From Taklimakanibacter lacteus (GTDB taxonomy: Bacteria; Pseudomonadota; Alphaproteobacteria; Rhizobiales; Aestuariivirgaceae): a DNA stretch of 64,000 nucleotides. Shown here in pieces: positions 7,006 to 28,160 of this stretch. The translations under genes were made by a program, and so were the position numbers. The stretch spans positions 62,001 through 126,000 of the forward strand of contig QOZQ01000004.1 of NCBI GenBank assembly GCA_003576695.1, in the 5' to 3' direction. The notes beneath the pieces are model-generated. The model was not told the DNA's origin and searched no databases. It saw nothing but the letters and a program-made list of their open reading frames with translations. How positions within the stretch are numbered: position 1 is the first letter of the stretch; every line of letters begins with the position of its first letter.

Positions 7006-7735
7006 GGATCGCTCCTGTGATGAGGCCGGTCACCTCTTCGGGGGTTGTGTGCTTGATCTCCTTGTCGGCCACCTTGGCGCCGCGGCGCATGACGATGACG
7101 CGGTCGGAGACGGCGAACACGTCGGGCATGCGGTGGCTGATGAGGACCACCGATATGCCCTGCTGCTTGAGGCGGCGGATGAGCGCCAAAACCTGCTCGA
7201 CCTGGCGCACGCTGATGGCGGCGGTCGGCTCATCCATGAGGACGAGCTTCGCCCTGGACAGGCGGGTGCGCGCGATGGCGACGGCCTGGCGCTGGCCGCC
7301 CGACATGCGGCGCACGATATCGCGCGGCCGGGTCTCCGACTGCAGCTCCTCGAAAAGCTCGCCCGCCTTCTTGAACATCGCGTCGTAGTTCATGACGCGG
7401 AAGGGCCAGATGCCCTTGCGGATCTCACGCCCGAGGAAGAGGTTCTCGGCCGCCGTGAGATTGTCGCACAGAGCGAGATCCTGATAGACGATCTCGATAC
7501 CCTTGGCGCGGGCGTCGAGCGGCTGGTTGAAATGCACCGTCTCGTCGCTGAGCACGATCTCGCCCGTGGTGGGCGGAAAATTGCCGGCGATGATCTTGAC
7601 CAGGGTCGACTTGCCGGCGCCATTGTCGCCCATGAGGCCGACGATCTCGCCCGGATGGATCTCGATATCCACCCCGTTCAGCGCATGGATCGCGCCGAAG
7701 GATTTGGTGATGCCCTTGAGCCTGAGCAGTGCCAT
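6995..7735 (-). CDS. Sugar ABC transporter ATP-binding protein, single domain (FrcA type)
   Basis: A 246-residue ABC ATPase with Walker A GDNGAGKST, signature MSGGQRQ and Walker B VLMDEPTAA. Unlike RbsA or XylG it has a single nucleotide-binding domain, as in rhizobial FrcA. The residues after Walker B read AISVRQ instead of the usual ALD/ALS D-loop, a feature of this sugar-importer branch. The ATG at 7735 was selected because GGAGGA lies nine bases upstream. First gene of the leftward operon ATPase-permease-binding protein-SDR. Confidence 0.9.
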   Translation of the reverse strand: MALLRLKGITKSFGAIHALNGVDIEIHPGEIVGLMGDNGAGKSTLVKIIAGNFPPTTGEIVLSDETVHFNQPLDARAKGIEIVYQDLALCDNLTAAENLFLGREIRKGIWPFRVMNYDAMFKKAGELFEELQSETRPRDIVRRMSGGQRQAVAIARTRLSRAKLVLMDEPTAAISVRQVEQVLALIRRLKQQGISVVLISHRMPDVFAVSDRVIVMRRGAKVADKEIKHTTPEEVTGLITGAIRAA

Positions 7736-7881
7736 TCCGGAGGGTCCTCCCATCACGCAGCGCTCTGCCGGCCTGCTTTACGAAAAACTACCCGGCCGGA
7801 ATTTTGCATGGCTTATGCGGACTTGTCGAGCGCCTTTGCGGCGGGTCCGGCATATTTGTCATACTAAAGACAACTCCCTCT

Positions 7882-7951
7882 CGTCATGGCCGGGCTTGAC
7901 GAGTTGGGGCAGAGCGCGCAACCCGGTTGTTGGATGGCCGGGGCCGTGACG
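7882..7951. repeat. Degenerate palindromic intergenic repeat
   Basis: In the gap between the sugar ATPase start and the hydroxylase stop, CGTCATGGCCGGGCTTGAC (from 7882) is mirrored imperfectly by GGATGGCCGGGGCCGTGACG (ending 7951). This resembles the CGTCATGGCCGGGCTTG-type dispersed repeats of Hyphomicrobiales. The arms no longer pair perfectly, so it is probably decayed. Confidence 0.45.
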
Positions 7952-7972
7952 AATGGGTAGGGCGGCGTCCGT

Positions 7973-8785
7973 CTAGTCGTCCGTATCCGACAGTTTTTCC
8001 AGATTCTGGTCGGCGCGGCGCGTGGCCGCCTCGAAGCGCTCTTCCATCGACTGCATGTTCTTCTTCGGCTCCTGATAGTAAGCCGTCATCTTGATCAAAG
8101 ACACGAAGGTCCTGTTGAGCACGCGTCCCCAGAATTTCATCGGACGGTCGAAGTCGAACAGCAGGATGACGCGTTCCTCATCCGTGTCGTTCCACACTTC
8201 ATGCTCATAGGTGTCGTCGAAGACGAAGATCTCGCCCGGGCGCCAGACCTGGACCTTGTCGGCGACGCGGATGCGGCACTTCTCCGCATCCTTCGGGATG
8301 ATCAAGCCGAGATGCGAGCGCAGGATGCCCTTGGATACGCCGCGATGGGCGGGAATGTGATAGCCCGGCCCCAGGATCGAGAACCAGGCGGTCTGCAGGT
8401 TGGGAATGCTCTCGAGGATCCGGGTGGAGAGCGGCGCCTGCTTGCAGTTCTTCTCGAGCTTGGTGCCGAAGCCGTAGAGAATGAAGGTGCGCCAGTTGTT
8501 GCCCTTGGCGATGCGCATCTGGTCGGGGGACACGTCCTGGAACAGCGGCACGGCTTCGCGGTGCTTCAGAATTTCCACGACCTCGGCGCGAATGCCTTCC
8601 CAATTGTCGACAAAGGGCTTGAGGAAGGGAAAATCCTTGTTGTCATGGATCGGCATGTCGCCGACCAGCGACTGACGGCCAAGGAAGTCGGCCAGCCCAC
8701 GGATCATGTTCTTGCCGAATTTCTTGATCTTCCTGCGGCGCTGCTTCTTAAGCTTCTGGCCCAGCGTCAAGTCGGTATTGGCCAT
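7973..8785 (-). CDS. Aspartyl/asparaginyl beta-hydroxylase domain protein (LpxO-like)
   Basis: A 270-residue Fe(II)/2-oxoglutarate dioxygenase-type protein of the aspartyl/asparaginyl beta-hydroxylase family. The iron/2OG core is visible as PAHRGVSKGILRSHLGL near residues 147-163 and FDDTYEHEVWN near 192-202. A strongly basic N-terminus (KKQRRRKIKKFGK) suggests membrane or nucleic-acid association. Bacterial members include LpxO, which 2-hydroxylates the acyl chains of lipid A. Because this window also encodes sphingolipid synthesis, a 2-hydroxylase for lipid acyl chains is possible, but nothing here proves it. Divergent from the DegT-type gene at 8946. Confidence 0.85.
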   Translation of the reverse strand: MANTDLTLGQKLKKQRRRKIKKFGKNMIRGLADFLGRQSLVGDMPIHDNKDFPFLKPFVDNWEGIRAEVVEILKHREAVPLFQDVSPDQMRIAKGNNWRTFILYGFGTKLEKNCKQAPLSTRILESIPNLQTAWFSILGPGYHIPAHRGVSKGILRSHLGLIIPKDAEKCRIRVADKVQVWRPGEIFVFDDTYEHEVWNDTDEERVILLFDFDRPMKFWGRVLNRTFVSLIKMTAYYQEPKKNMQSMEERFEAATRRADQNLEKLSDTDD

Positions 8786-10226: not shown

Positions 10227-10283
10227 TGTCAAATCCCGCCGCTCTTCTGTCAAGCCGCCGGGCCGCCGCCCGGCTAGTGTGAG
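10227..10283 (+). promoter_or_regulatory. Candidate AraC-type activator site and promoter, class III PLP enzyme operon
   Basis: TGTCAA at 10227 and again at 10248 form direct repeats 21 bases apart, and CTAGTGTGAG (10274-10283) begins 26 bases after the second repeat. The same elements with identical spacing lie upstream of the BMC operon (16394, 16415, 16441). Two-turn direct repeats overlapping a -35 region are typical for AraC-family activators. The start codon is 34 bases beyond the putative -10. Confidence 0.6.
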
Positions 10284-10316
10284 ATCACCGCAGAATTTGC
10301 CTTTGGGGTCTCGCCG

Positions 10317-11627
10317 ATGAGCAAGAAAAAAGACGATTTCATCGCCAGGTCGAAGGAATACTGGAATCCCGGCAAGACATCCGACTGGCAGCGCATGGGC
10401 GTCGATCTCGTCATCGACCGGCGCGAGGCCTATTATCTCTGGGACGTCGATGGACGGCGCCTCATCGATGTGCATCTCAATGGCGGCACGTATTCGCTGG
10501 GCCACCGCAATCCGGAAGTGGTCGAGGCGGTGCGCGAGGGCATGGCCTATTTCGATATCGGCAATCATCACTTCCCATCGATCATGCGCACCCATGTCGC
10601 CGAGATGCTGGAGCGGCTGACGCCCCAAGGCCTCAAGCGCACGATATTCGCCTCGGGCGGAGCCGAGGCGATCGACATCGCGCTCAAGAGTGCGCGCAAT
10701 GCCACCAAGCGGCGCAAGATCATCTGCATCGAGCGCTGCTATCACGGCCATACGGGCCTTGCGGTGCAGGTCGGCGATGACCGCTTCTCCAAGCTCTTCC
10801 TGTCGGATGCCCCGACCCAGGAGGTGGTCAAGGTGCCGTTCAACGATCTCGACCGGATGCTGTCGGCCATTGCGGTCGGCGATGCGGCCTGCGTGATCAT
10901 GGAGACGATCCCGGCGACCTATGGCTTCCCGATGCCGAAGCCGGGCTACCTCAAGGCCATCAAGCAGGCCTGCGAGAAAGTGGGCACGCTCTATATCGCG
11001 GATGAGGTGCAGACCGGTCTCATGCGCACCGGCGAGATGTGGGGCATCGAGACCTATGGCGTCAGTCCGGACATGCTGGTCACCGGCAAGGGCCTGTCGG
11101 GCGGCATCTATCCGATCGCCGCAGTGGTGGTGAGCGAGACGGCGGGCAAGTGGCTGAGCGAGGATGGCTTCGGCCACATGTCGAGCTTCGGCGGCGCCGA
11201 GCTTGGATGCCTCGCGGCCGCCAAGGTGCTGGAAATCTGCTCGCGCCCCGAGACCCGCTCGCAGGTCCACTATATTTCGGCCTATCTCGCCAATGGCCTG
11301 CGCCAGGTCCAGGCCAATTACCCCGATTTCTTCACCGGCATCCGCCAGCGCGGCATCGTCATGGGGCTCGAATTCAACCATGACCAGGGTGCCGTCCATG
11401 TGATGAAGCATCTCTACCAGAACGGCATCTGGGCGATCTTCTCGACCCTCGACAAAAGGGTGTTGCAGTTCAAGCCGGGCCTGCTTATCGATCGCGAGAT
11501 GTGCGATGAGATCCTGACCCGGCTCGATACCTCGGTCGCCCAGGCTCAGGCGGAAGTCATGGGCGGGCGGGCGAAGAGCTATATGACGACGTCCAGGCCA
11601 GCCCATTCGCGCCAGTCGGCGGCCTGA
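10317..11627 (+). CDS. Class III PLP-dependent aminotransferase/phospho-lyase, BMC-linked
   Basis: A 436-residue class III (ornithine/GABA) PLP enzyme. FASGGAEAIDIALKSAR marks the cofactor phosphate region, IADEVQTG the PLP-contacting aspartate, and K258 in VTGKGLSGG the internal aldimine lysine. The kinase gene follows after 3 bases. In the actinobacterial aminoacetone/1-amino-2-propanol microcompartment locus, a class III enzyme beside an APH-fold kinase acts as a phospho-lyase, turning 1-amino-2-propanol phosphate into propionaldehyde. The same role is inferred here from the pair, the nearby BMC operon with an aldehyde dehydrogenase, and the shared promoter element. A plain omega-aminotransferase is the alternative. 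Confidence 0.85.
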   Translation: MSKKKDDFIARSKEYWNPGKTSDWQRMGVDLVIDRREAYYLWDVDGRRLIDVHLNGGTYSLGHRNPEVVEAVREGMAYFDIGNHHFPSIMRTHVAEMLERLTPQGLKRTIFASGGAEAIDIALKSARNATKRRKIICIERCYHGHTGLAVQVGDDRFSKLFLSDAPTQEVVKVPFNDLDRMLSAIAVGDAACVIMETIPATYGFPMPKPGYLKAIKQACEKVGTLYIADEVQTGLMRTGEMWGIETYGVSPDMLVTGKGLSGGIYPIAAVVVSETAGKWLSEDGFGHMSSFGGAELGCLAAAKVLEICSRPETRSQVHYISAYLANGLRQVQANYPDFFTGIRQRGIVMGLEFNHDQGAVHVMKHLYQNGIWAIFSTLDKRVLQFKPGLLIDREMCDEILTRLDTSVAQAQAEVMGGRAKSYMTTSRPAHSRQSAA

Positions 11628-11630
11628 TGC

Positions 11631-12626
11631 ATGTCGTCGCCTGATGCCGCCCACCAGCAGAAGCTGAAGGAACTGCAGCAGATCGCCGAGTCAGCCCTTG
11701 CCCGCTACGACCTGCCGGCGGGCGCCACGGCGACGATGATCAACCTGTCGGAGAACGCCACCTACCGCATCGATGGCGGCGGGCAAAAATGGGCGCTGCG
11801 CGTCCATCGCGAATTCTATCATTCGAAGACAGCCATCGGGTCCGAGCTCGCCTGGCTGCAGGCGCTGCGCCGGGACGATGCGGTCATCACGCCGGTGCCG
11901 CGCAAGGGCAGGGATGGCGATCTCATCCAGAGCATCCAACCTAAAAGCGGCGCGCTGCGACATGTGGTGCTGTTCGACTGGGAAACGGGCGCGGAACCGT
12001 CGGAAGCCGAACTGCTCGGCCCCTTCGAGGTGCTGGGGGCGGCGACGGCGCGCATGCACCTGCATGCGCGGGCGTGGAAGCGGCCACAGAATTTCGAGCG
12101 CTTGACCTGGGATTTCGATGGCGCCTTCGGCAAGGTGCAGCATTGGGGCTCCTGGCGGCAGGGCATGGGGCTCGATGCCGACAAGACCAGGCTGTTCCAG
12201 CGCACGGTCGACCTCATCGAAAGGCGCCTGGCCGCCTTCGGCAAGGGACCTGAACGCTATGGCCTCATCCATTGCGACATGCGGCTCGCCAATCTCCTGA
12301 TCGACGGGGATGAGACCAAGGTCATCGATTTCGACGATTGTGGCTTCAGCTGGTATCTCTATGACGGGGCGACGGCGCTGTCCTTCATCGAGCATCGCCC
12401 CGACGTGCCGGCGCTCATCGAGGCCTGGGTGAAAGGCTACCGCACGGTGGCGCCGCTCCCGGCCGAGGATGAGCATGAGATCCCAACCTTCGTGATGTTC
12501 CGAAGGCTCCTGCTCGTCGCCTGGATCGGCTCGCATGCGGAGACCGATCTCGCCAAGTCGATGGGTGTTCCCTATACGCGGGATACCGTTGCGCTGTGCG
12601 AGAATTACCTGCGCAAATTCGGCTAG
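11631..12626 (+). CDS. APH-fold kinase, probable amino-alcohol kinase
   Basis: A 331-residue aminoglycoside phosphotransferase-fold kinase. The catalytic loop LIHCDMRLANLL (HxD....N) lies near residue 217 and the metal-binding VIDFDDCGF near 236. Its close coupling to the class III PLP enzyme matches the kinase/phospho-lyase pair of the actinobacterial amino-alcohol microcompartment, where (S)-1-amino-2-propanol is phosphorylated with ATP. Substrate here is inferred, with homoserine-kinase-like or other amino-alcohol activity as alternatives. Its last 4 bases overlap the convergent GST gene. Confidence 0.82.
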   Translation: MSSPDAAHQQKLKELQQIAESALARYDLPAGATATMINLSENATYRIDGGGQKWALRVHREFYHSKTAIGSELAWLQALRRDDAVITPVPRKGRDGDLIQSIQPKSGALRHVVLFDWETGAEPSEAELLGPFEVLGAATARMHLHARAWKRPQNFERLTWDFDGAFGKVQHWGSWRQGMGLDADKTRLFQRTVDLIERRLAAFGKGPERYGLIHCDMRLANLLIDGDETKVIDFDDCGFSWYLYDGATALSFIEHRPDVPALIEAWVKGYRTVAPLPAEDEHEIPTFVMFRRLLLVAWIGSHAETDLAKSMGVPYTRDTVALCENYLRKFG

Positions 12627-13294
12627 TGAATGAAGCTGCGATCGAGTCCCATCTGATCGGCAAAAGGCGCTTCTTCCGCCAGCGCGGCACGCAAAGCGGG
12701 TGTGTCGATATGGCGCCGGAAATAGCGATCGAGCCTGGGAAACTGCGGCGCGATCCGATAGCCGAGATAGTGGAACAGGATCAGATTCGAAATCACCGCG
12801 AGATCGGCGATGGTCAGCCTGTCGCCAACAAGGAAATCCCGGAGGTCGAGATTTTCGAGGTAGCCGAATGCCTCAGGCGCAGCCTTGTCCCTTGCCGCTT
12901 CAATGACGGCCGAATCGCCCGGGACGTTGCGGATTTTCGGCCCCACGATCTGATTGTGGAAAATGGGGTGGATCACACTGCGAAACAGCGCCGAGCCCGC
13001 CCAGGCATCAAGTGCCAGTGCTGCGGCATACTCCCTGTCGTCGGCGGGAAGAAGCGCCGGCGTCGGCTGCTTGCGCTCGAGATAGCAGATGATCGCCGTC
13101 GAATCGGCAAGGCGGAAGCCATTGTCCTCGATTGCCGGGATGAGGCCGGTCGGGCTTATGTCGCGCCAGTTCGATGGCGGATTGCCCGGGACGACCGGGA
13201 TGACGATCTCGGACTCGAGGGGAATTCCCTTGAGCCTGGCAGCGAGGATCACCTTTCTCGTATGGACCGATAGCGGCACGCCATAGACTTTCAT
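12623..13294 (-). CDS. Glutathione S-transferase family protein
   Basis: A 223-residue GST. The N-terminal thioredoxin-like half has SVHTRKV in place of the usual catalytic Ser/Cys turn, the cis-proline segment GLIPAIEDNG, and the ADSTAIICYLE glutathione contact. The all-helical C-terminal half contains LTIADLAVISNL. No partner gene defines a substrate. It lies between the kinase and the MerR gene on the opposite strand and splits the putative BMC regulon. Confidence 0.87.
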   Translation of the reverse strand: MKVYGVPLSVHTRKVILAARLKGIPLESEIVIPVVPGNPPSNWRDISPTGLIPAIEDNGFRLADSTAIICYLERKQPTPALLPADDREYAAALALDAWAGSALFRSVIHPIFHNQIVGPKIRNVPGDSAVIEAARDKAAPEAFGYLENLDLRDFLVGDRLTIADLAVISNLILFHYLGYRIAPQFPRLDRYFRRHIDTPALRAALAEEAPFADQMGLDRSFIH

Positions 13295-13343
13295 TTTCCA
13301 CTCCTGTGATCGAGTTCGGACGACAAATTCCGGGATGGTGGGT

Positions 13344-14180
13344 TCAGGCTGCGCGGCGCACCGGAAACTGGATTTCCACCAGCGCCTTCTCGAATCCGGA
13401 CTGGCCGGTAAAGGATTCGAGAAAGACTTCGCGGCAGGGGCCGGCGATCTCGTATCTGTTGGCGTCTATCCAGCTTCCGATGGCGGCGAAGGACGAGTGG
13501 CTCGCCGCATTGGTCCCCGGTCTGACGATGGTCGCCATTGTCGGCACGGCGGGAAGCTCGCCTGCCAGCAACAGGCCGCCGCCCGAAAGACTGAGGCTTG
13601 CATTCGAGGGGCGCGTCAAGGTGAAGCCTATTTCGAGATCGAGCTTTTCGTCCTCCGTGTCGTTGCGGGCGACGACGATGAGCTTGTCGCGCAGGCCGGC
13701 GCGGATCTGCTTCGCTCCTTCCTCGGCTATGGAGCAGAGCACGCCGGGCACGTCTTCGATGCCGTCGAAGGATTGGCGCAGGGCGAGAAAGGGAGCCGCC
13801 GCCACGGACTTCACCACCACATCATAGCCCTCGATGCGACCCTGGCGATCGATCTCGGCAATGCGCGATTCGATGTGACGCAGACGCGCCTCCTCCGCCT
13901 GCAGCGTCTGCTCGACCTGCGCCCGCCTCATGGTCAGCATGCCGCGCAGCTCCGCTGCAGGTATGTCGCCATCGAGGAGAGGTCTTATCTGGTCCAGTGA
14001 GAGGCCGAGCTCCTTCAGGGCCAGGATGCGGTTGAGGGTCTGGAGCTGCCGAATGTTGTAATAGCGGTAGCCGCTGCGCTGGTCCGTATGGTCCGGCTGC
14101 AGCAATCCCAGCTGGTCGTAGTGGCGCAGCTGCCTTGTCGACACCTGGGCGATCTGAGCGAATTCACCAATCCTGAACAT
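13344..14180 (-). CDS. MerR family regulator with GyrI-like effector-binding domain
   Basis: A 278-residue regulator with an N-terminal MerR winged helix (RIGEFAQIAQVSTRQLRHYD at residues 3-22), a coiled-coil dimer helix (around 85-115) and a C-terminal GyrI/SoxS-like small-molecule-binding domain, as in BltR/BmrR-type drug sensors. The ATG at 14180 is chosen because AAGGAAG precedes it; the upstream 13-residue extension is not typical of MerR. No transporter is divergent from it; the GST downstream (49-base gap) is the most likely target besides itself. Confidence 0.88.
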   Translation of the reverse strand: MFRIGEFAQIAQVSTRQLRHYDQLGLLQPDHTDQRSGYRYYNIRQLQTLNRILALKELGLSLDQIRPLLDGDIPAAELRGMLTMRRAQVEQTLQAEEARLRHIESRIAEIDRQGRIEGYDVVVKSVAAAPFLALRQSFDGIEDVPGVLCSIAEEGAKQIRAGLRDKLIVVARNDTEDEKLDLEIGFTLTRPSNASLSLSGGGLLLAGELPAVPTMATIVRPGTNAASHSSFAAIGSWIDANRYEIAGPCREVFLESFTGQSGFEKALVEIQFPVRRAA

Positions 14181-14211
14181 CTGCACTTCCTTTGTGCCAA
14201 GGTTGTGCGGG

Positions 14212-14234
14212 CTTGACACAGTGTTAAAGTCAAG
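14212..14234. promoter_or_regulatory. Candidate MerR operator
   Basis: CTTGACACAGTGTTAAAGTCAAG is a 23-base dyad (CTTGAC/GTCAAG arms) lying 32 bases upstream of the MerR gene start. MerR proteins bind such dyads placed between -35 and -10 boxes, so self-regulation is likely. Binding is inferred. Confidence 0.5.
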
Positions 14235-14280
14235 CGGAAAAATTCACCGGGCGCCGTTCTGGCATCCTGGCGCGGATTAT

Positions 14281-15192
14281 TCAGCGTGCAGAGATGACCC
14301 CGGCTACGACGATCATGATTCCGCCGGCCAGCAGCCCCCGTGTCGGGCTGGCGAAGCCCGCGGCGATCAGGATCAGGGCGCTCACCAAGGGCGTGGCATA
14401 GGCCAAGACGGAGAGCAAGACACGGTCGCCGCGGCGAATGCCGTAATCCCAGGCGAGGTTGCCGAGCGCCAGGGGAATGATCCCGACCAGCACGGAGCAG
14501 ATCAAGGTGCCGGCGGGCGGGATCATCGTCGTTTCGAAGAGGAGATGCAGGCCTAAGGCAATGATGGCGGACAGGGCAAATCCCCGCATCAGGGCATCGG
14601 GCGCGTTCTCACCCTGCCACAGGCGGAAGACGACGAAGATGGCCCAAGCCAGGCCACCGGCAGCCGCCAGAGCGACTCCGAGCCAGTCGATCGTGGTCAC
14701 CTCGGCGCCAATGACCAGCGCAGCCCCGGCAAGGCCGATCGCGACGCTCATCAGATGATTTGCCTTGAGCGCGAAGAGGCCGAGCATGACGCCGAGCAGG
14801 ACCACCATCAGCGGCCAGAGATAGAGGATGAGATTGGCTTGCGCCGGCGGGATGTAGCCAAGCGCCCAGATGAAGAAGACATCCGATACGAGAAGGCCCA
14901 AAGCGACCATGAAAGCCGGCAACCACGCTGTGAGCCAGCTCCGGTTGTCGCTCGTCTCGGTGGCTTGCGGAGAAGCCTTGGGCAGACAGAAGAGAAAGAC
15001 TGCGCCGACGGCGAATATAATGGCCAGGAACTGAAAGAGGGGAACCGAGGTCGAGAGGACGGCGAGCAGCGGCCAGGTTGCCCAGAGCGGGATGGCCGTC
15101 ACCCCGACAATGGTCCAGAGCGTGCGCGGCTTCAGCGGGAGCCCGAGGACCCTTGGCGCCGGAAGCGAAAACACCGTGGTCGTGCCGTTCAT
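14281..15192 (-). CDS. EamA/DMT superfamily transporter
   Basis: A 303-residue inner-membrane protein with about ten hydrophobic helices in two EamA repeats; LGYIPPAQANLILYLWPLMV is the typical conserved stretch of the first repeat. The ATG at 15192 has GGGAAAG upstream; a longer reading would overlap the AraC gene. It starts 16 bases after the AraC stop codon and is almost certainly co-transcribed with it. Export or import of a small amine or metabolite tied to the BMC pathway is an inference from that linkage. Confidence 0.87.
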   Translation of the reverse strand: MNGTTTVFSLPAPRVLGLPLKPRTLWTIVGVTAIPLWATWPLLAVLSTSVPLFQFLAIIFAVGAVFLFCLPKASPQATETSDNRSWLTAWLPAFMVALGLLVSDVFFIWALGYIPPAQANLILYLWPLMVVLLGVMLGLFALKANHLMSVAIGLAGAALVIGAEVTTIDWLGVALAAAGGLAWAIFVVFRLWQGENAPDALMRGFALSAIIALGLHLLFETTMIPPAGTLICSVLVGIIPLALGNLAWDYGIRRGDRVLLSVLAYATPLVSALILIAAGFASPTRGLLAGGIMIVVAGVISAR

Positions 15193-15208
15193 GTCTTTCC
15201 CTATGATT

Positions 15209-16240
15209 TCAGGCCGTTGCCTTTGCCCGGTAGCTGCGCGGCGAGGTGCCGGTCCAGCGATGGAAGGCGCGCGAAAAGGCCGACAGCTCCGAATAGCCGA
15301 GCAGGAAGGCGATCTCCGAGAAGGGCAGTTCGCGCTGGCGGACATAGACGAAAGCGAGATCGCGGCGCGTCTCCTCGACCAGATCCTTGTAATTGAGATT
15401 GTCGCGCGCCAGCTCGCGCTGGATGGCGGCCGGCGATGACTTGATCGCCTCCGCCACATGCTCGAGCGCCGGATAGCCCTCGGCAAGACGGGCGCGCACC
15501 GCCGACCTGATCTGATCCTTGAGAGTCTGGCGCGGCACGGGGCGGGTCGCGACGCTCATCAGGCACATGCGGGTGATGGACAGCAGCTTCAGATCGGGCG
15601 CCGGCATCGGGCGCTGGAACAGATCGCGGCGGAAGACCAGCGCGTTGGTCGACTGCGAGAAGAAGACCGGCGCATCGAAAGCGCTCTCATGCTCGCGCCA
15701 GGCCTCGGGCTTGGGATGCTCGAAATGGACTTCTTCCGGCGCCCATGAGCTTCCCAGGCCTTCGCGCATGATGTTGAGGAACATGCCGAGGGAGAGCTCG
15801 GCGTCCTGGCGGCGCGCCAGGATATCGGGCATGCGGATCTGGTATTCGAGACGGACCAGGCCGCGGCCGGCATCGGCGATCGCCATATGGGTCGATTGCT
15901 GGTGCAGGCCGAACAGCCCGACGAAGTTCTCGAGCGCCGCACCCAGGGTCGGCGACGAGATGGCGGTATAGCCAATGAGTCCCAGGTCGCGCGGCTTGAA
16001 GCTGTTGCCGAACCACAGGCCGAAATTGGGATTGCGGGTGTTGCGCGCGGCTTCCTCGAAAAGCGAGCAGAAGGCCGAGAGCTCGAGGCTCAGGGTAGGC
16101 TGGCCGACCGAAGCCGGGTCGACGCCGGCTTCGCCACAGACGCGGTCGATGTCGCCGCCCCAGCGGGCAACGTGATCGGCCAGGCCGGTCGCGGCTGAGG
16201 CCAGGATCCCGGGATTGGCGCTGTCTTCCCCAGGCTGCAT
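15209..16240 (-). CDS. AraC family transcriptional regulator, probable BMC operon regulator
   Basis: A 343-residue regulator with an N-terminal Arabinose_bd/OruR-type sensor domain (about residues 15-200) and a C-terminal AraC DNA-binding domain with two helix-turn-helices, ending with ELPFSEIAFLLGYSELSAFS and RAFHRWTGTSPRSYR. It diverges from the BMC operon across 213 bases that hold TGTCAAGCGC direct repeats 21 bases apart. The same repeats precede the class III PLP enzyme operon, so it is the best candidate activator for both. The inducer is unknown but could be an amino alcohol or aminoketone. Confidence 0.9.
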   Translation of the reverse strand: MQPGEDSANPGILASAATGLADHVARWGGDIDRVCGEAGVDPASVGQPTLSLELSAFCSLFEEAARNTRNPNFGLWFGNSFKPRDLGLIGYTAISSPTLGAALENFVGLFGLHQQSTHMAIADAGRGLVRLEYQIRMPDILARRQDAELSLGMFLNIMREGLGSSWAPEEVHFEHPKPEAWREHESAFDAPVFFSQSTNALVFRRDLFQRPMPAPDLKLLSITRMCLMSVATRPVPRQTLKDQIRSAVRARLAEGYPALEHVAEAIKSSPAAIQRELARDNLNYKDLVEETRRDLAFVYVRQRELPFSEIAFLLGYSELSAFSRAFHRWTGTSPRSYRAKATA

Positions 16241-16314
16241 GCGAAGCCCCTGTTAGAGAATGCAGCCTTGCACGGAAAGCCAGGCGACGCAACTTTCCGG
16301 CTGTAGAAAGAGTT

Positions 16315-16377
16315 AAATAGGAGACATCTTAAATAATTCTTCTCAGTAGCGGTCGGATAGTTATGATGTCCCTATTT
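16315..16377. promoter_or_regulatory. AT-rich divergent promoter region with inverted repeat
   Basis: Between the AraC gene and the BMC operon an AT-rich stretch carries AAATAGGAGACATC (16315-16328) and GATGTCCCTATTT (16365-16377), an inverted pair differing by one inserted base. It may hold the AraC gene's own promoter or an upstream operator allowing looping. Function is inferred from position only. Confidence 0.4.
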
Positions 16378-16389
16378 TATATGAACAAG

Positions 16390-16450
16390 GTGATGTCAAG
16401 CGCATCCCATGTGGTGTCAAGCGCCGGCTGGCGCCAAGGCCTAGTTTCAG
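16390..16450 (+). promoter_or_regulatory. Candidate AraC-type activator site and promoter, BMC operon
   Basis: GTGATGTCAAGCGC (16390-16403) and GTGGTGTCAAGCGC (16411-16424) are direct repeats with 13 of 14 bases identical, 21 bases apart. CTAGTTTCAG (16441-16450) begins 26 bases after the second TGTCAA, exactly as upstream of the gene at 10317. If TAGTTT is the -10 box, transcription would begin at or next to the A of the ATG at 16454. Confidence 0.65.
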
Positions 16451-16453
16451 CCC

Positions 16454-18022
16454 ATGGCCATACATCCTCTTCTCGAAGACAGGGGCTTCACCGGTTTTCA
16501 CGCCAAGCAAATGGTGGAGAAAGCGCGCTGGGCGGCGGAAGCCTTCTCGACCTATGGCCGGCCTGAGGTCCTGAGAATTGCCAAGGCGGTCGCGGAAGCC
16601 GGATACGCCAAGGCCCAGAATTATGCCCAATGGGCGGTCGAGGAAACGGGCTTCGGCGTCGTCGAGCACAAGGCGATCAAGAACCAGGCCTGCTCGCGCG
16701 GCCTCTACGAGCTCTATCAGGACGAGGACTTCACCGGTACCAGGCTCGATGCGGAGCGCAAGATCCTGGAGATCGCGCGGCCGGCCGGCGTCGTCTTCGC
16801 GCTGACGCCCTCGACCAATCCGGTCGCCACCGTCTTCTACAAGATCATGCTGTGCCTGCTGACCCGCAATGCCATCATCATCTCGCCCCATCCGATGGCC
16901 AAGGCCTGCTGCGCCGATGCGGCGAAGCATCTCGCCCAGGCGGCCGAGGATGCGGGCGCCCCCGATGGTGTCATCCAGGTCATCAAGGAGCCCTCGCTCG
17001 CCATCGTCGAGACGGTGATGAAGTCCGACCGCATCGATGTGATCCTCGCCACCGGCGGCACGCCGGTGGTGCGCGCGGCCTATAGTTCCGGCAATCCGGC
17101 CATCGGCGTCGGGCCCGGCAATGTGCCGGCCTATGTCGATGAAACCGCCGATGTCGCGCAGGCGGCCAAAGCGATCGCCGACTCGAAGTCCTTCGACAAC
17201 GGCATATTGTGCACCAATGAGAGCGCCATCATTGCCCATGGCGCCATTGCAGCCGCGCTCGAGCAGGAGCTCAAGCGCAATGGCTGCCATGTGTGCAGCA
17301 CGGAGGAACGCGACCTCCTCGAAAAGACCCTGTTTCCGGGGGCTAAGTTCGACATCGCATTGATCGGCAAGAATGCCGAGATCATCGCGCAGCAGGCCGG
17401 GTTCCGGGTGGCGCCGCGCACCAGGGTCCTGGTGGCGCCGCTCGAGCGCATCGGCGACGACTATCCTCTGAGCCGCGAAAAGCTCTGCCCGGTCATCGGC
17501 CTTTATGTGGCGGCGACGCGCGAAGCGGCGATGATCGCCTGCCGGGCGATGACGCGGCGCTCGGGCGGCGGGCATTCGGCGGCGATCCATGCGAAGGACG
17601 CCAGCATCATCCGGCGCTTCGGCGAAGAGATGAATGTGCTGCGCATCAGCGTCAATGTCGGCAACAGCCTGGGCGCTTCCGGCTTCGAGACGCATCTGGC
17701 GCCGACCATGACGATCGGCACCGGCTATTTCGGCCGAAGCTCGGTGGCCGAGAATGTCGGGCCGCAGCATCTGGTGCAATGGGTGAAGATGGCGTGGAAC
17801 AAGGACGAGCGCGTCGCGATGCCGTCCTTCGCTGACGTCCATCCAAACGAGAAGCCGCATATCGGCACGCCGCCCAAGGGCGATATCGACTATGATTTCG
17901 GCAATCACCCGCCGGGTGTCGCCTCGCCAACCGTCGCGAGAGCGTCGGGAGAGGGCGATGACATCAGAGCCGAGATCCGCCGCATCATCCTCGAAGAGCT
18001 CAAGGAGCTGACGAGGCGCTGA
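16454..18022 (+). CDS. Acylating aldehyde dehydrogenase with C-terminal encapsulation peptide
   Basis: A 522-residue CoA-acylating aldehyde dehydrogenase of the PduP/EutE type, oxidising an aldehyde such as propionaldehyde to its acyl-CoA with NAD. The nucleophile is C253 in DNGILCTNES; LTPSTNPVAT and GVGPGNVPAY are family segments. After a Gly/Pro/Ala-rich linker (about 484-498) the last 24 residues (DDIRAEIRRIILEELKELTR) form a short amphipathic helix like the encapsulation peptides that target cargo to BMC shells. No good ribosome site precedes the ATG. First gene of the shell operon; its stop overlaps the next ATG (TGATG). Confidence 0.93.
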   Translation: MAIHPLLEDRGFTGFHAKQMVEKARWAAEAFSTYGRPEVLRIAKAVAEAGYAKAQNYAQWAVEETGFGVVEHKAIKNQACSRGLYELYQDEDFTGTRLDAERKILEIARPAGVVFALTPSTNPVATVFYKIMLCLLTRNAIIISPHPMAKACCADAAKHLAQAAEDAGAPDGVIQVIKEPSLAIVETVMKSDRIDVILATGGTPVVRAAYSSGNPAIGVGPGNVPAYVDETADVAQAAKAIADSKSFDNGILCTNESAIIAHGAIAAALEQELKRNGCHVCSTEERDLLEKTLFPGAKFDIALIGKNAEIIAQQAGFRVAPRTRVLVAPLERIGDDYPLSREKLCPVIGLYVAATREAAMIACRAMTRRSGGGHSAAIHAKDASIIRRFGEEMNVLRISVNVGNSLGASGFETHLAPTMTIGTGYFGRSSVAENVGPQHLVQWVKMAWNKDERVAMPSFADVHPNEKPHIGTPPKGDIDYDFGNHPPGVASPTVARASGEGDDIRAEIRRIILEELKELTRR

Positions 18023-18633
18023 TGGCCAAGCTCCGTTCCTATATCTTCATCGATCAATTGCAGTCCGGCACCATGTGCTATCTGGGCTCGTTCTGCCGGG
18101 GGTTCCTGCCGCGCGCCAATATGGCGGCGATCGTCATCGAAGTGGCGCCAGGCCTCGATATCGAGCCTTTGACCGATATCGCGGTCAAGACCGTCGATGT
18201 GAAGCCCGGCATCCTGGTGGTCGAAAGGCAGTTCGGCTATCTCGAATTCCATTCGCATTCGACCGCTTCGGTCAGGGCGGCCGGCGATGCCATACTGGCG
18301 GAGCTCGGCTCGAACGAGAAGGATGCGCTGAAGCCGGAGATCCTGGCATCCAAGATCGTCAAGCGCGTCGACAATTATCATGCGCTCCTCATCAACCGGA
18401 ACAAGTCGGGCTCGATGATCCTGCCGAGCGAATCGCTCTTCGTCCTTGAGATGCAGCCGGCAGCCTATGCCATCCTCGCCGCCAACGAGGCGGAGAAGGC
18501 GGCCAATGTCAAAGTCGTCGACTACCGGATGATGGGCGCCACCGGGCGGGTCTATCTCTCGGGCGAGGAAAGCAATATCAGAGCCGCCGCGCACGCGGCC
18601 GAGCAGGCCCTTGAGCTCCGGAGGGCAGCATGA
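18022..18633 (+). CDS. BMC shell protein, tandem-domain (BMC-T) 1
   Basis: A 203-residue protein with two BMC folds in one chain, forming pseudohexameric trimers in the shell. MAAIVIEVAPGLDIEPLTD and RQFGYLEFHSH mark the first domain; SESLFVLEMQPAAYAILAAN and GATGRVYLSGEE mark the second. It is paralogous to the protein at 19699 (shared PGIL-x-x-ERQFG-x-LE-x-HS). It starts inside the ALDH stop codon and overlaps the next gene by 4 bases, so translation is coupled. Likely a gated pore for larger substrates or cofactors; that role is inferred. Confidence 0.9.
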   Translation: MAKLRSYIFIDQLQSGTMCYLGSFCRGFLPRANMAAIVIEVAPGLDIEPLTDIAVKTVDVKPGILVVERQFGYLEFHSHSTASVRAAGDAILAELGSNEKDALKPEILASKIVKRVDNYHALLINRNKSGSMILPSESLFVLEMQPAAYAILAANEAEKAANVKVVDYRMMGATGRVYLSGEESNIRAAAHAAEQALELRRAA

Positions 18634-19109
18634 GCGGCATTTCCTCGGACGAGATCCGCCAGCTGGTGCGCGATGCCTTGCGCGAGCTGCTGCCGGGGGT
18701 GGGCAAGGCGAGGCCCGAAACCGGGGGCGGCGGCACGCTGCTCGCCCGTCTCAGATCGGCCCTGCTCGATCCCAAATCGGCGCGCGTCGACGTCAAGCTC
18801 GACACCGCGGCGGATCTCAGGAGCTTCGCGCGCGATCTTCTGCAGGCGCCGGAAGACATCAAGACCGGCATACTGTCGGGCCGGATCGAGCTCGGCATCG
18901 CCTCCCAAGGCGCCGTGAGTGCTGCCGTACCAGTGGCGGCGCGCCGGAGCCAGCATCAGATTTCGAAAGGGGTGGTGACGGAGATCATGGTGGCCGAGAT
19001 CGGCAAGAGCCATGACCGCCTCGTCATCGGCAAGGGCGTCGTCGTGACGCCGCTCGCGCGCGACAGAGCGCGCGAGGTGAAGCTTGAAATCGTGAGGGAC
19101 CGCTCATGA
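18630..19109 (+). CDS. BMC-associated protein of unknown function with N-terminal encapsulation-like helix
   Basis: A 159-residue protein I do not recognise as a named family. Residues 6-20 (SDEIRQLVRDALRELLPG) form an amphipathic helix strikingly like the ALDH C-terminal targeting helix, followed by a Gly-rich linker (around 26-34). The middle (50-95) is mixed alpha/beta, and the C-terminus has GKGVVVTPLARDRARE, a G-x-x-VTP-x-ARD motif that recurs in several BMC-associated proteins. It overlaps both neighbours by 4 bases inside the shell operon. It is likely a lumenal or shell-bound component (enzyme, scaffold or cofactor-related); no catalytic residues can be assigned. Confidence 0.75.
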   Translation: MSGISSDEIRQLVRDALRELLPGVGKARPETGGGGTLLARLRSALLDPKSARVDVKLDTAADLRSFARDLLQAPEDIKTGILSGRIELGIASQGAVSAAVPVAARRSQHQISKGVVTEIMVAEIGKSHDRLVIGKGVVVTPLARDRAREVKLEIVRDRS

Positions 19110-19384
19110 AGACAGGAATAGTCGTTGGAAAAGTCTGGGCCACGAAGCGCCTGGCCGAACTGCCGGGGGGCGCGCTGCTCGAAGTCGCCGGCGAGGAAGA
19201 GGGCGGCGCGGGCGAGCGTATGATCGCGTTCGATCCGCTGGGCGCCGGCGTGGGGGAGCGCGTGCTGGTCACGCAGGGCTCCGTCGCCAAAGCATGGTTC
19301 AGGGACGGCAACAATGTCGTCGATGCGCTGGTCATCGGCATTCTCGATGAGCAGGCTTCGTCAAAGCCATCCCGGAAAACTTGA
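19106..19384 (+). CDS. BMC vertex protein (EutN/CcmL, BMC-P)
   Basis: A 92-residue EutN/CcmL-family protein that caps shell vertices as a pentamer. The N-terminal MKTGIVVGKVWATKR and the AFDPLGAGVGERVLVTQGS segment are the family signature, and DALVIGILD closes the barrel. It overlaps the upstream unknown protein by 4 bases. Standard length for the family. Confidence 0.93.
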   Translation: MKTGIVVGKVWATKRLAELPGGALLEVAGEEEGGAGERMIAFDPLGAGVGERVLVTQGSVAKAWFRDGNNVVDALVIGILDEQASSKPSRKT

Positions 19385-19413: not shown

Positions 19414-19689
19414 ATGTCTAACGCAATTGGTTTTGTCGAAACGCGTGGCTTCGTCGCGGCCTTTGCCGCCGGCGATGCGATGGTGAAGGCCGCGAATGTC
19501 ACGATCATCGGACGCGAGCAGGTCGGCGCCGGCCTCGTCTCGGTGCAGGTGCAAGGCGATGTCGGCGCCGTGAAGGCGGCGACGGAAGCCGGCGCCGAAG
19601 CCGCGCGCAATGTCGGCGAAGTGGTGTCGGTGCATGTCATTCCGCGTCCGCATCCCGATGTCATCAAGCATTTCGGCACCGCGAAGTAA
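19414..19689 (+). CDS. BMC shell hexamer protein (BMC-H)
   Basis: A 91-residue single-domain BMC protein that tiles shell facets as hexamers. [20 protein letters not shown] is the typical start, and [15 protein letters not shown] carries the central pore loop with small residues (GAG). A strong ribosome site (AAAGGAGG) precedes the ATG, consistent with the high expression of a major shell protein. 29 bases separate it from the vertex protein gene. Confidence 0.95.
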
Positions 19690-19698
19690 TCTTTCGCC

Positions 19699-20325
19699 GT
19701 GGCGGAGCTGCGCGTCTATCTCAAGCTTGTTGCCCTCAAGCGGCAGTTCGCCGCCTATATGGGATCGCCGACCCGCGCGCGGGGCTATGTGCCGCTCGAG
19801 GGCATGCATTCGCTGATCATCGAGATAGCCCCGGCGCTCGCCATCCATCATGTGAGCGATGTGGCGCTGAAGTCGGTGCCGGAGGCGGAGCCCGGCATTC
19901 TCTATACCGAGCGGCAGTTCGGCATCCTCGAGCTGCATTCCTTCGACATGGACCATGTCGACAAAGCGGGTGCTGCGGTGCTGAAGGCGATCGGCCGGAA
20001 GCCTGAGGACCAGCTCAAGCCGCAGCTGCTGTTCGCCGAGATCGTGCCGGAAGTGACCGACAGCCACGCCGTCATCCTCAACCGCAACCGCGAAGCCTCG
20101 ATGATCCTGCCGGGCCAGTCGCTGCTCCTGGTCGAGATGATGCCGGCACTCTTCGCCGCCTATGCGGCGAACGAGGCCGAGAAGGTGGCGCCCGACGCTA
20201 CGCTGGTCGATTGCCAGATGATCGGCGCCTCGGGGCGGCTGTTCATGGCGGGCGAGAAGGCTGAGCTCGAAAAGGCACGCGAGCATATCGTCGGCATGCT
20301 GGGGACGATCAAGGGACGCGGTTGA
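19699..20325 (+). CDS. BMC shell protein, tandem-domain (BMC-T) 2
   Basis: A 208-residue tandem BMC-domain protein paralogous to the one at 18022: the stretches SLIIEIAPALAIHHVSD, PGILYTERQFGILELHS and ASMILPGQSLLLVEMMP align with it through both domains. It starts with GTG 9 bases after the hexamer gene. With one pentamer, one hexamer and two trimers the operon has a complete minimal shell set. Its N-terminal 35 residues differ most from the paralogue, suggesting a different pore or partner. Confidence 0.9.
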   Translation: MAELRVYLKLVALKRQFAAYMGSPTRARGYVPLEGMHSLIIEIAPALAIHHVSDVALKSVPEAEPGILYTERQFGILELHSFDMDHVDKAGAAVLKAIGRKPEDQLKPQLLFAEIVPEVTDSHAVILNRNREASMILPGQSLLLVEMMPALFAAYAANEAEKVAPDATLVDCQMIGASGRLFMAGEKAELEKAREHIVGMLGTIKGRG

Positions 20326-22232: not shown

Positions 22233-23012
22233 TCACGCCTGGTTTATGGCGTCCATAGACTCAGGGAGGATCTGCCCGCCATCGACGATGATCGTCTGGC
22301 CGGTCACATAGCCCGCTTCCCGGGTCGCGAAATAAAGCGCGGCATAGCCGATGTCCTCCACGACGCCGAGGCGCTTCAAGGGGATCGACGCCGCCATGGA
22401 CTTCTCATAGTCGGGACCGAGATCGGTGAGGCCCTCGGTCTTGATATTGCCCGGCAGGACGGCATTGACGGTGATGCCGTATTTGGCGAGCTCGATGCAG
22501 GCGGTGCGCATGAAGCCGAGCTGGCCGGCTTTGGTGGCGCCATAATGCGTCCAGCCGGGAAAGCCCGTCACCGGGCCGGTGATCGAGGAGGTGAGGATGA
22601 TGCGGCCCTCGCCGCTTTTCTTGAGCGCCGGGAGGCAGGCTTTCACCGACAGGAAGGTGCCCTTGAGATTGGTGTCGACGGTGATGTCCCAGGTCTCGTC
22701 CGACATGTCCTCGATCTTCACCTGCGGGAAGATGCCGGCATTGGCGCACAGCACGTCGAGGCCGCCATGCACCTTGACCGCGTAGTCGGCCGCCTTCTGC
22801 ATGCTCCTGAAGTCGGTGACGTCGGCGGCGAAGGCGGCAGCCTTGCCGCCGGCCTTCACCAGCTCATCGGCGCAGGCCCTGGCGCCATCCTCGTGGCGTG
22901 CGGTGATCAGCACCTTGCAGCCCGACTTGGCGAAGACGCGCGCAATGCCCTTGCCGATGCCCTTGCTGCCGCCGGTGACGAGTACCGATTTGTCCTTCAG
23001 TGACGAAAACAT
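22233..23012 (-). CDS. SDR family oxidoreductase (FabG-like)
   Basis: A 259-residue classical SDR: TGGSKGIG near residue 13, CANAGIF in place of NNAG, the S-Y-K triad with YGATK near 162, and C-terminal IIVDGGQ. It is downstream of and on the same strand as the polyamine-type ABC permease genes (72-base gap), so it may act on that transporter's substrate. It resembles sugar/polyol dehydrogenases; specificity is unknown. Confidence 0.86.
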   Translation of the reverse strand: MFSSLKDKSVLVTGGSKGIGKGIARVFAKSGCKVLITARHEDGARACADELVKAGGKAAAFAADVTDFRSMQKAADYAVKVHGGLDVLCANAGIFPQVKIEDMSDETWDITVDTNLKGTFLSVKACLPALKKSGEGRIILTSSITGPVTGFPGWTHYGATKAGQLGFMRTACIELAKYGITVNAVLPGNIKTEGLTDLGPDYEKSMAASIPLKRLGVVEDIGYAALYFATREAGYVTGQTIIVDGGQILPESMDAINQA

Positions 23013-23045: not shown

Positions 23046-23085
23046 GCTTCCTTGTCGCGAAAGTCGAGCAACTTTCGCGGGAAGC
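23046..23085. repeat. Small palindromic repeat with CGC-AAAGT core, copy A
   Basis: GCTTCC-N4-CGCGAAAGT (23046-23064) pairs with ACTTTCGCG-GGAAGC (23071-23085) around a 6-base loop. Related palindromes with core C-CAAAGT/ACTTTGG lie at 28161-28209 and 55340-55383. Between the SDR start and the permease stop. Confidence 0.6.
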
Positions 23086-23876
23086 TAAGACTGCGCCCGC
23101 CGGCGCAAGGTGATCAGCCAGTAGCCGCCGAGCAGGAGCAAGGCGGCCCCGAAGGTCGACACGGTGCCGAGCACCGGCACGCCCGGCGTGTAGCCCGCCA
23201 CCATCTTGGCATAGAGATATTCGGGGATCGTCGTGTCGGCGCCGTCGGTGTAGAGCGAGAGCGGGAAGTTGCCCCAGGAGAGCAGGAAGGCGAAGAGCGA
23301 GCCCGACACGATGCCGGGGAGCAGCACGGGCAAGGTCACTTCGCGGAAGACCTGGAAACGCGAGGCGCCCAGATCGAAGGCCGCTTCCTCGAGCGCCGGA
23401 TCGAAGCTGTAGACCTGGATCGAGATGACGAGCGTCACCACCGGAATGATCCAGACGAGATGGGCGAAGACCGCCGTCATCCATGACATCTGGAGCCCGA
23501 TGGCGTTGAACCACAGGAGAAGCGCCAGGCCCAGCACCGATTGCGGGAAGAAGATCGGCAGCAGCACGATCTTCTGGAACAGCGTGCGGCCCTTCCAGTT
23601 GTAGCGCGCAAAAGCCAGCGCGCCGAAGAAGGCGATGGCGACGGCAATCACCGTGACGCAGAGCGCAATGGTGATCGAGGTCTTGAACAATTGGTGGATC
23701 TCGATCGAATCGAAGGTCTTGCGCCACCAGTCGAGACCCCATTTCTGGATCGGGAACAGGAAATAGCGGCTCGAAGTCAGCGAGGCGAGCAGAATGCACA
23801 TAGCCGGGAGATAGATGAAAACCAGGACCGCCAGGGTCCAGGCCCAGATCAAGGCATGGCGTGAACGTTCGCTCAT
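23085..23876 (-). CDS. Polyamine/opine-type ABC transporter permease (PotC-like)
   Basis: A 263-residue inner-membrane permease with about six helices and the EAA cytoplasmic loop (EEAAFDLGASRFQVFREVTLP) that contacts the ATPase. The start at 23876 is chosen because GGTGAGG precedes it and it lies 4 bases past the upstream permease stop; the longer form would overlap that gene. Partner of the permease at 23881. Confidence 0.9.
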   Translation of the reverse strand: MSERSRHALIWAWTLAVLVFIYLPAMCILLASLTSSRYFLFPIQKWGLDWWRKTFDSIEIHQLFKTSITIALCVTVIAVAIAFFGALAFARYNWKGRTLFQKIVLLPIFFPQSVLGLALLLWFNAIGLQMSWMTAVFAHLVWIIPVVTLVISIQVYSFDPALEEAAFDLGASRFQVFREVTLPVLLPGIVSGSLFAFLLSWGNFPLSLYTDGADTTIPEYLYAKMVAGYTPGVPVLGTVSTFGAALLLLGGYWLITLRRRAQS

Positions 23877-23880
23877 GGCC

Positions 23881-24747
23881 TCACCTTCTCCCCAATATCG
23901 CATCGAGATCGAAGCGCTTGAGCACGAGCAGGACCAGCGTGCCGACGACGATCATCAGGAGCACGGCCAAGGCGGCGCCGAGCGGCCAGTTCTGCGCATA
24001 GGTGAAGGCGATCTCTATGTCATGGGTGATGGGGATGATGGTCTGGCCGCCCAGCACCTTCGCTTCGGCAATGGCGCCGACGGCGAGCACGAAGGTCAGC
24101 AGCAGGCCGATCATGATGCCGGGCATGGAGAGGGGCAATTCGACCTCACGGAACACCTGGAAGCGCGAGGCGCCGAGATCGCGGGCGGCTTCACGCGTCT
24201 CGTTGGGCACCATGGAGACGCCGAGCGTCATCGGGAACAGCATGAAGGGCAAATAGACATAGACCATGCCGAGCAGCACCATGCCGCGCGTGAACAGCCA
24301 GCTTTCAAGCTCGACGCCGAACCAGCTCTTCAGCGTGCCGAGCAGCACGCCGTTCTTGATGAAGAACAGGATCCAGCCATAGAGCCTGACATTCTCGGAG
24401 ACGAAGAGCGGGATGGTGAAGAGCAGCGTCAGGAGCGGTGCCCAGCGGCCGAAGACGCGCGACAGGCCATAGGCGATCGGGTAGCAGACCACCGCCAATA
24501 TGCAGACGGTGAAGGCGGCGAAGGACAGCGACCACCCGAAGGAAATGTAGCTGTTGCCGGTGAATATCCCGGCATAGTTGATAAGGGTGGGCGAATGAAC
24601 CAGGCCGAAGGAGCGTTCCGGCATGAAGCTGTAGGCAATGACCGCGAGGAGCGGCGCGGCGAAGCCGACCAGCAGGAAGATGAGGAGCGGCAGCGCGTTG
24701 CGCGCACCTTGCGACAGGCCCTTGCCCGTTTCATGGAGCGCCGCCAT
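23881..24747 (-). CDS. Polyamine/opine-type ABC transporter permease (PotB-like)
   Basis: A 288-residue inner-membrane permease with six or more helices and the EAA loop EAARDLGASRFQVFREVELP. Its ATG touches the stop codon of the upstream ATPase gene (one-base overlap), so the two are translationally coupled. Forms the translocation pore with the PotC-like subunit. Confidence 0.9.
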   Translation of the reverse strand: MAALHETGKGLSQGARNALPLLIFLLVGFAAPLLAVIAYSFMPERSFGLVHSPTLINYAGIFTGNSYISFGWSLSFAAFTVCILAVVCYPIAYGLSRVFGRWAPLLTLLFTIPLFVSENVRLYGWILFFIKNGVLLGTLKSWFGVELESWLFTRGMVLLGMVYVYLPFMLFPMTLGVSMVPNETREAARDLGASRFQVFREVELPLSMPGIMIGLLLTFVLAVGAIAEAKVLGGQTIIPITHDIEIAFTYAQNWPLGAALAVLLMIVVGTLVLLVLKRFDLDAILGRR

Positions 24748-25814: not shown

Positions 25815-25849
25815 GCGATCCTTGTGAATGGTCAGGGAATCTCCCCAAT

Positions 25850-25953
25850 CCGTCATCCCGGCGAAAGCCGGGATCCCCTGAATAGAACCAGACTGGGCAG
25901 CAGTTCCTGCGCCTCACCAATTCAATGGACCCCGGCTTTCGCCGGGGTGACGG
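25850..25953. repeat. Palindromic repeat (REP-like), copy 2
   Basis: Left arm 25850-25876 (CCGTCATCCCGGCGAAAGCC and on) is identical to that of the element at 3346; the right arm 25927-25953 has two base changes (CCCCGG for TCCCGG, GGTGACGG for GATGACGG). It separates the binding-protein and ATPase genes of one operon and could attenuate expression of the downstream genes. Confidence 0.85.
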
Positions 25954-27177: not shown

Positions 27178-27347
27178 GCGACTTCCTCCGTGTTCAGTGC
27201 CCATCATTCGTGTGGTGTAGGGGCTTTTCTGGCGTTTCCCATTTGTAAGTCTAAAGCACGTTCATTGTAATGGCTTGACTTTTGACGATCCCGACTTGAC
27301 ACCCTCCTTCCCGGCGCGATGGCTTCACATCCACATTGCCTTAGCGC

Positions 27348-28100: not shown

Positions 28101-28160
28101 CGCCAACTCTATGCACTTCCCAGCGAGTGCTTCGCCGGGAGGACGCGCGTCGAATCCAGT

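Follow-up and report, generated by a model that had tools for sequence, protein, structure and literature searches.

A TGTCAA direct repeat as the probable operator of an AraC-controlled, three-operon amino-alcohol microcompartment regulon in Taklimakanibacter lacteus

Are the separate operons of a putative microcompartment pathway in Taklimakanibacter lacteus governed by one control element and, if so, by which regulator? The locus lies in a stretch of 64,000 nucleotides of contig QOZQ01000004.1 (hereafter the window), for which a first-pass annotation had proposed that one AraC-type element, TGTCAA-15 nt-TGTCAA, precedes two operons and ties them into one regulon. Reading the sequence places the TGTCAA hexamers exactly where they had been reported, starting at 10227 and 10248 (site 1) and at 16394 and 16415 (site 2), and the genome holds no other exact copy. 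The second element that had been claimed, CTAGTnTnAG at 26 bases past the second TGTCAA, is reproduced as well, as CTAGTGTGAG at 10274 and CTAGTTTCAG at 16441.

A mismatch-tolerant scan of the genome added a third copy that the earlier work had overlooked: TGTCAAG-N14-AGTCAAG, with one mismatch, on the minus strand (27301-27274). The shared element of the proposed regulon thus stands, while the number of operons rises from two to three, so that the earlier interpretation was largely right but incomplete. We propose the three sites as direct-repeat operators of the PLP enzyme-kinase operon (site 1, TGTCAA-N15-TGTCAAG, 10227-10254, plus strand, PWM score 34.9), the aldehyde dehydrogenase-shell operon (site 2, same form, 16394-16421, plus strand, 27.6) and a transporter operon (site 3, 27274-27301, minus strand, 30.0). 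A PWM scan of the window returned exactly these three scores of at least 12.

The genes under the sites suggest a common pathway. Site 1 is followed on the plus strand by a class III PLP-dependent enzyme (10317-11627; PF00202), a proposed O-phospho-amino-alcohol phospho-lyase, and by an APH-fold kinase (11631-12626; PF01636), a proposed amino-alcohol kinase whose best solved relative is 6ef6 (304 bits). Site 2 is followed, also on the plus strand, by a microcompartment aldehyde dehydrogenase (16454-18022; PF00171), nearest at scores below cut-off to models of CoA-acylating acetaldehyde dehydrogenases, and by shell genes: a CcmP-like BMC-T protein recognised by profile matches (18022-18633), a EutN/CcmL pentameric vertex protein (19106-19384; PF03319), a BMC-H protein (19414-19689; PF00936) and a second BMC-T-like protein (19699-20325), which lacks a Pfam match and is assigned by place, resemblance and conservation. 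The same operon holds an unnamed plus-strand gene (18630-19109) whose 159-residue product has no Pfam match, a weak TIGR02536 match to its end, and 28-41% identity in part of the relatives. Site 3 precedes, on the minus strand, an ABC transporter solute-binding protein (26014-27207; weak PotD match, SBP_bac_8, TAT signal), the remainder of a PotDABC-like transporter (23085-25856), consisting of an ATPase (24747-25856) and two permeases (23881-24747 and 23085-23903) that are PotA/B/C-like at scores below cut-off, and a short-chain dehydrogenase (SDR; 22233-23012), whose best solved relatives are 6ci8 and 6ci9 (303 and 302 bits). The SDR and transporter genes lie 2-7 kb beyond the shell genes. 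We take 6ef6 to be the aminopropanol kinase, and 6ci8/6ci9 the aminopropanol dehydrogenase, of a mycobacterial microcompartment; from the closeness to these structures and general biochemistry we infer an amino-alcohol pathway (kinase, phospho-lyase, propionaldehyde, propionyl-CoA), whose substrate is probably 1-amino-2-propanol.

Upstream of site 3 and beside the regulon lies a conserved neighbour, an isochorismatase-like hydrolase (27348-28106, minus strand), which has 61-79% identity in eight of the nine relatives' stretches that contain it, and may release the amino alcohol from an amide.

Which protein might read these sites? The AraC gene claimed to be divergent from site 2 is indeed there (15209-16240, minus strand), and domain searches confirm its family: matches to PF12833 (HTH_18; 1.5e-12) and PF00165 (8e-07) indicate the AraC-type C-terminal helix-turn-helix pair, and the sensor domain is of the Arabinose_bd type (PF12625). 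We propose this protein as the activator.

To examine conservation, we used the aldehyde dehydrogenase as a guide. At E <=1e-150 it occurs in 18 of 397 genomes of the order, the genome of T. lacteus included, and 13 of these genomes have an exact repeat no more than about 20 kb away from it. Two more have the repeat in other form or place (one-mismatch copies in G013, copies on the contig with AraC in G038), and in three (G372, G228 and G120) it was not found. The set for wider comparison consisted of 84 loci, that is, 80 dehydrogenase loci kept from the genome scan plus 15 of 16 added stretches (L157 left out), minus 11 redundant loci removed before counting (L074, L076, L088, L108, L116, L118, L120, L126, L140, L144 and L145). 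We then counted, without naming any motif beforehand, every direct repeat of a hexamer with a spacer of 2-30 in the upstream regions of seven genes, namely the pathway genes and AraC, leaving out hexamers with fewer than three different letters. TGTCAA-N15-TGTCAA ranked first. The exact form is present in 25 of 32 loci with an AraC match versus 4 of 52 without; when one mismatch is allowed, these proportions become 29/32 and 9/52.

The 84 loci contain 72 sites with at most one mismatch. For 64 of these, a pathway gene follows at a distance of 20-420 bp and encodes a solute-binding protein (23 sites), PLP enzyme (21), kinase (12), aldehyde dehydrogenase (7) or SDR (1); the other eight are inside coding sequence before shell genes (3) or elsewhere (5). 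In related genomes, where the first-pass annotation had proposed to look for it, the repeat recurs upstream of pathway genes in 29 of the 32 AraC-bearing loci, and the annotation's claim that one element before both operons makes one regulon is supported by separate copies before the PLP-kinase and the dehydrogenase-shell operons in G126 (L142), G015 (L143), G307 (L144/L145) and L064. Variant sites also exist: L062 and L067 have GGTCAA versions (PWM 22.5 and 21.2) and L138 a version with a spacer of 14 (PWM 31.3). In L152, where the AraC is only a 25% relative, a site was not found in the locus. Three loci counted as lacking both AraC and site (L069, L110 and L112) have an AraC outside the piece examined, together with sites in L110 and L112 and a weaker one in L069 (PWM 22.1).

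Two observations concern the loci themselves. In the Olavius algarvensis Gamma 3 symbiont (L124, 7518-9885), the match to the PLP enzyme gene is split into two parts with 1.6 kb between them, which looks like an interrupted gene. L092 and L109 are RMM-type loci in records titled Bifidobacterium breve, titles that may be misassigned.

What kind of promoter do the sites belong to? All three window sites have TAGnnT at the same offset, index 48 from the first T: TAGTGT at 10275-10280 (plus strand), TAGTTT at 16442-16447 (plus) and TAGACT at 27248-27253 (minus), with predicted transcription starts near 10287, 16454 and 27241, respectively. CTAGTnTnAG, which sites 1 and 2 share, is best read as a -10 hexamer, TAGnnT. 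Conservation of TGTCAA itself proves nothing, because the relatives' sites were chosen by it, but the base that follows and TAnnnT played no part in that choice. A G just after the second TGTCAA (index 27) is present in 60 of the 64 relatives' sites, and 46 of the 64 have TAnnnT at index 46-49, where 2000 shuffles give 2.9 on average and never more than 9; the other 18 lack it at this register. The half-site itself apart, no -35 hexamer is kept among the aligned sites, while the -10 stands at a fixed register. With the -10 at index 48, the inner half-site would occupy about -39 to -33, which is a class II layout. Class II activators of the AraC/XylS family use two direct half-sites about 21 bp apart that overlap -35. 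The window resembles these in regulator domain, in its 21 bp direct repeat and in having the inner half-site at the -35 position; as judged from sequence, the layout would be that of a class II operator, two direct half-sites with the inner one over the -35 position and a fixed -10. The element differs from these in its half-site sequence, TGTCAAG.

In the window, the start predicted for site 2 (16454) is the ATG of the aldehyde dehydrogenase gene, and a leaderless mRNA could be guessed. Six relatives carry a site ahead of this gene, and in these the earliest usable start codon is 4 to 66 bases past the predicted start of transcription, so that leaderless mRNA is only a window-specific guess.

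We therefore favor, with a probability of roughly 85%, the reading that the repeat is the operator of the AraC protein encoded at 15209-16240, acting as class II activator of a three-operon regulon for an amino-alcohol microcompartment, the amino alcohol probably being 1-amino-2-propanol. An AraC dimer, probably loaded with such an amino alcohol, would bind both TGTCAA half-sites, which are 21 bp apart, at about -60 and -39, and would face the same side of the helix. With the inner half-site overlapping the place of the -35 box, AraC would recruit RNA polymerase to a poor promoter that offers only the TAGnnT -10 box, which is class II activation. The three sites would turn on three operons jointly: that of site 3 for uptake and dehydrogenation (ABC transporter and SDR), that of site 1 for conversion of the amino alcohol by kinase and PLP lyase through a phospho-ester to propionaldehyde, and that of site 2 for the step from propionaldehyde to propionyl-CoA by the aldehyde dehydrogenase inside the microcompartment. 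What has been observed is where the sites lie, that they are conserved together with the regulator and the genes, and that the -10 keeps its register; from this we infer that AraC binds, what the inducer is, that the protein activates instead of repressing, and which reactions the enzymes carry out.

The alternative that keeps best is that AraC binds the element but represses, or is mainly an anti-repressor. A protein bound over the -35 position by its inner half-site could also block the polymerase. However, activators of the AraC/XylS family usually bind direct repeats that overlap -35, and a -10 kept at fixed register with no conserved -35 besides the half-site suits activation, so that we regard repression as improbable.

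Slightly less probable still is that another transcription factor, encoded elsewhere, binds the element and that the adjacent AraC is a bystander. Direct repeats by themselves do not name the protein bound to them, and four site-bearing genomes lack a clear AraC relative: among the nine AraC-less loci with a site, the genome search gave no AraC match for L063, L139 and L141 and only a 28% relative for L070. As for the others, the genomes of L064, L066 and L097 encode an AraC at another place, L153 shares its genome with the AraC-bearing L154, and the ninth, L065, lay outside the search. On the other side, site and AraC group co-occur in many proteobacterial loci, including some outside microcompartment loci, and most of the site-free loci sampled carry a DeoR or GntR regulator and lack a close AraC relative. 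Of five such loci, three have a DeoR-type regulator divergent from the PLP gene (L098, L105 and L149) and the actinobacterial L127 has a GntR-UTRA regulator; the regulator of L087 was not recognised, as two proteins tried matched nothing. Searches of 11 site-free genomes (L078, L084, L087, L096, L098, L105, L121, L127, L128, L133 and L135) found no AraC relative at E 1e-30 in ten, and in L078 only relatives with 26-28% identity. We tie AraC to the site because of the association (29/32 versus 9/52), the other regulators in four of the five site-free loci sampled, the absence of a close AraC relative from all 11 site-free genomes searched, and the AraC tree.

In this tree of 53 AraC proteins, whose root serves for drawing only, all 42 proteins labelled as site-linked, whether the site is in the locus itself, in another part of the genome or was recognised by PWM, fall in one group of 46 with support 100/100. 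Seven of the 11 unlinked proteins are outside this group and four inside: L210, which is a 4.8 kb contig only; L220, which does carry a one-mismatch site before a EutB gene; and L216 and L218, in whose loci a site was not found. The window AraC scores 313.5 bits with the QhpR model NF049968 (cut-off 250), a cut-off passed in 32 of 397 genomes, from which 30 QhpR-type loci were taken. The neighbours scanned belong to the microcompartment and the amino-alcohol pathway rather than to a quinohemoprotein amine dehydrogenase, so that the window AraC resembles QhpR in score and differs in neighbour genes and element. In L214, the gene for the alpha subunit of the amine dehydrogenase is 1.6 kb away from a regulator near which a TGTCAA-type site was looked for and not found, and this regulator is in a separate branch of the tree. 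As the site group stands apart from it, the automatic name QhpR is probably wrong for the site-linked AraC proteins. A family-wide QhpR element is ruled out: none of 13 QhpR-type loci with no known tie to the pathway (L166-L170, L174 and L189-L195) has a site with at most one mismatch within 1.5 kb. In three other genomes of this sampling, a site precedes the kinase (L185, from G001) or lies just outside the first piece examined (G331 and G368). The model NF049968 passes its cut-off on an AraC group without amine dehydrogenase neighbours, and may over-reach.

That the repeats arose by chance or from duplicated DNA is hardly credible and is rejected on their rarity in window and genome and their conservation in relatives, even though TGTCAA dyads and some longer-pattern matches do arise by chance in other genomes. 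The window contains two TGTCAA-N15-TGTCAA matches versus 0.00 expected and none in 100 shuffles, and these are the only ones in the whole genome (5,779,501 bases in 24 contigs), where the reversed pattern gives none. Both lie at pathway operons, and the spacers differ between sites, in agreement with the annotation's claim that this is not duplicated DNA. The longer pattern NGTCAA-N16-GTCAAG-N20-TANNNT, searched with up to one mismatch, finds exactly sites 1-3 genome-wide, each with none, versus two matches for the reversed control. Further one-mismatch copies on C9, C18 and C22 were discounted as sites, none having TAnnnT at register; those on C9 and C18 fall within open frames.

Specificity was also assessed in other genomes. 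The bare repeat has at least one copy in 114 of 397 genomes of the order, so its occurrence alone is not to be over-read. All 64 relatives' sites score at least 18.8 with the PWM, a value obtained on its own training sites. The negatives were 374 kb from 19 RMM-type loci that lack AraC, 18 of them in records with actinobacterial titles and one, L123, in a record titled uncultured bacterium; here three matches reach 12, the best of them 14.9, and none reaches 15. A class-wide scan with the exact pattern including the -10 found 28 matches in 19 of 385 genomes. In five genomes (G000, G456, G583, G680 and G756; 14 matches) the pattern is beside pathway genes or AraC; the other 14 have one match each with no pathway gene near (G461 having only a 30% AraC relative), which suggests that single matches outside clusters are mostly chance.

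If the repeat is the operator of AraC, how far does its regulon extend? In G001, G331 and G368 a site precedes the kinase and no dehydrogenase match was found at E of 1e-60. Because it is present where no microcompartment dehydrogenase was found, the element is best described as belonging to the amino-alcohol pathway as such, not to the microcompartment alone. G680, G456 and G756 have a second AraC, 55-56% identical, beside a further copy of the element, which in G680 and G756 is directly followed by a diol dehydratase gene; the clusters of these two genomes run on into transporter, kinase, PLP enzyme, dehydrogenase and shell genes with more sites. In L255 (site 8282, AraC 7160-8158) and L257 (site 16734), a second AraC of this kind and the element before a diol dehydratase stand in one cluster with microcompartment genes, which by analogy with the actinobacterial RMM2 perhaps represents a two-substrate compartment. 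In L220 (10787) and L258, a one-mismatch site with an AraC relative (40%) lies before the gene for ethanolamine ammonia-lyase (EutB), and the stretches examined gave no match to the window's shell genes.

A bolder extension, which we hold only tentatively and think rather doubtful, is that a single AraC group with a single type of operator coordinates several ways into C3/C2 aldehyde breakdown across Proteobacteria, with or without a microcompartment: amino-alcohol kinase and lyase, diol dehydratase (in G680 and G756, with a second AraC that is a paralogue) and, in G235, ethanolamine ammonia-lyase. The shell would then be a module recruited into a regulon that existed before it, and all routes may share an aldehyde or acyl-CoA product as signal rather than each responding to its own substrate.

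How does the system compare with known ones? The PDU microcompartment handles propionaldehyde. The cited passages describe a PocR-type AraC regulator for PDU loci (PMC4207490); the window is similar in placing a microcompartment under AraC-type control, and differs in its sensor domain (Arabinose_bd) and in entry by kinase and lyase, although G680 and G756 add diol dehydratase under the same element as the kinase-lyase route. The closer likeness is to the RMM/AUT (1-amino-2-propanol) loci of Actinobacteria: class III PLP enzyme, APH kinase, SDR, aldehyde dehydrogenase and shell proteins are all in the window, and the aldehyde dehydrogenase is 47-66% identical across the 80 loci kept, actinobacterial RMM loci among them. 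In contrast to these loci, the window combines AraC and its proposed direct-repeat sites with a division into three operons and a PotDABC-like ABC transporter. In the passages cited, RMM/AUT loci are GntR-regulated (PMC4207490, PMC6620236), whereas the window operon is adjoined by AraC. The actinobacterial loci have an amino-acid permease, whereas the regulon's transporter here is of ABC type.

In the open PMC literature, the matches listed gave no AraC regulator with a TGTCAA direct repeat (best 20 of 137) and no description of this regulon (best 20 of 137, 15 of 36 and 12 of 39); nor did open PMC papers yield a description of binding by QhpR-type AraC proteins, or a paper on the aminopropanol kinase of the Mycobacterium smegmatis microcompartment. 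The kind of mechanism is known; the element, regulator group and span were not met among the papers listed in that literature.

An amino-alcohol regulon under AraC, with a microcompartment as one of its parts, is the most fitting description of the system. For a proteobacterial type of microcompartment, control of which is described in the cited passages only for the actinobacterial GntR version, the analysis provides an operator that can be searched for, together with a regulator and a regulon of three operons. Site 3 brings a transporter and a dehydrogenase into the pathway and points to the class of inducer. Moreover, related microcompartments go with three regulator families in the sampled loci: AraC, GntR and DeoR.
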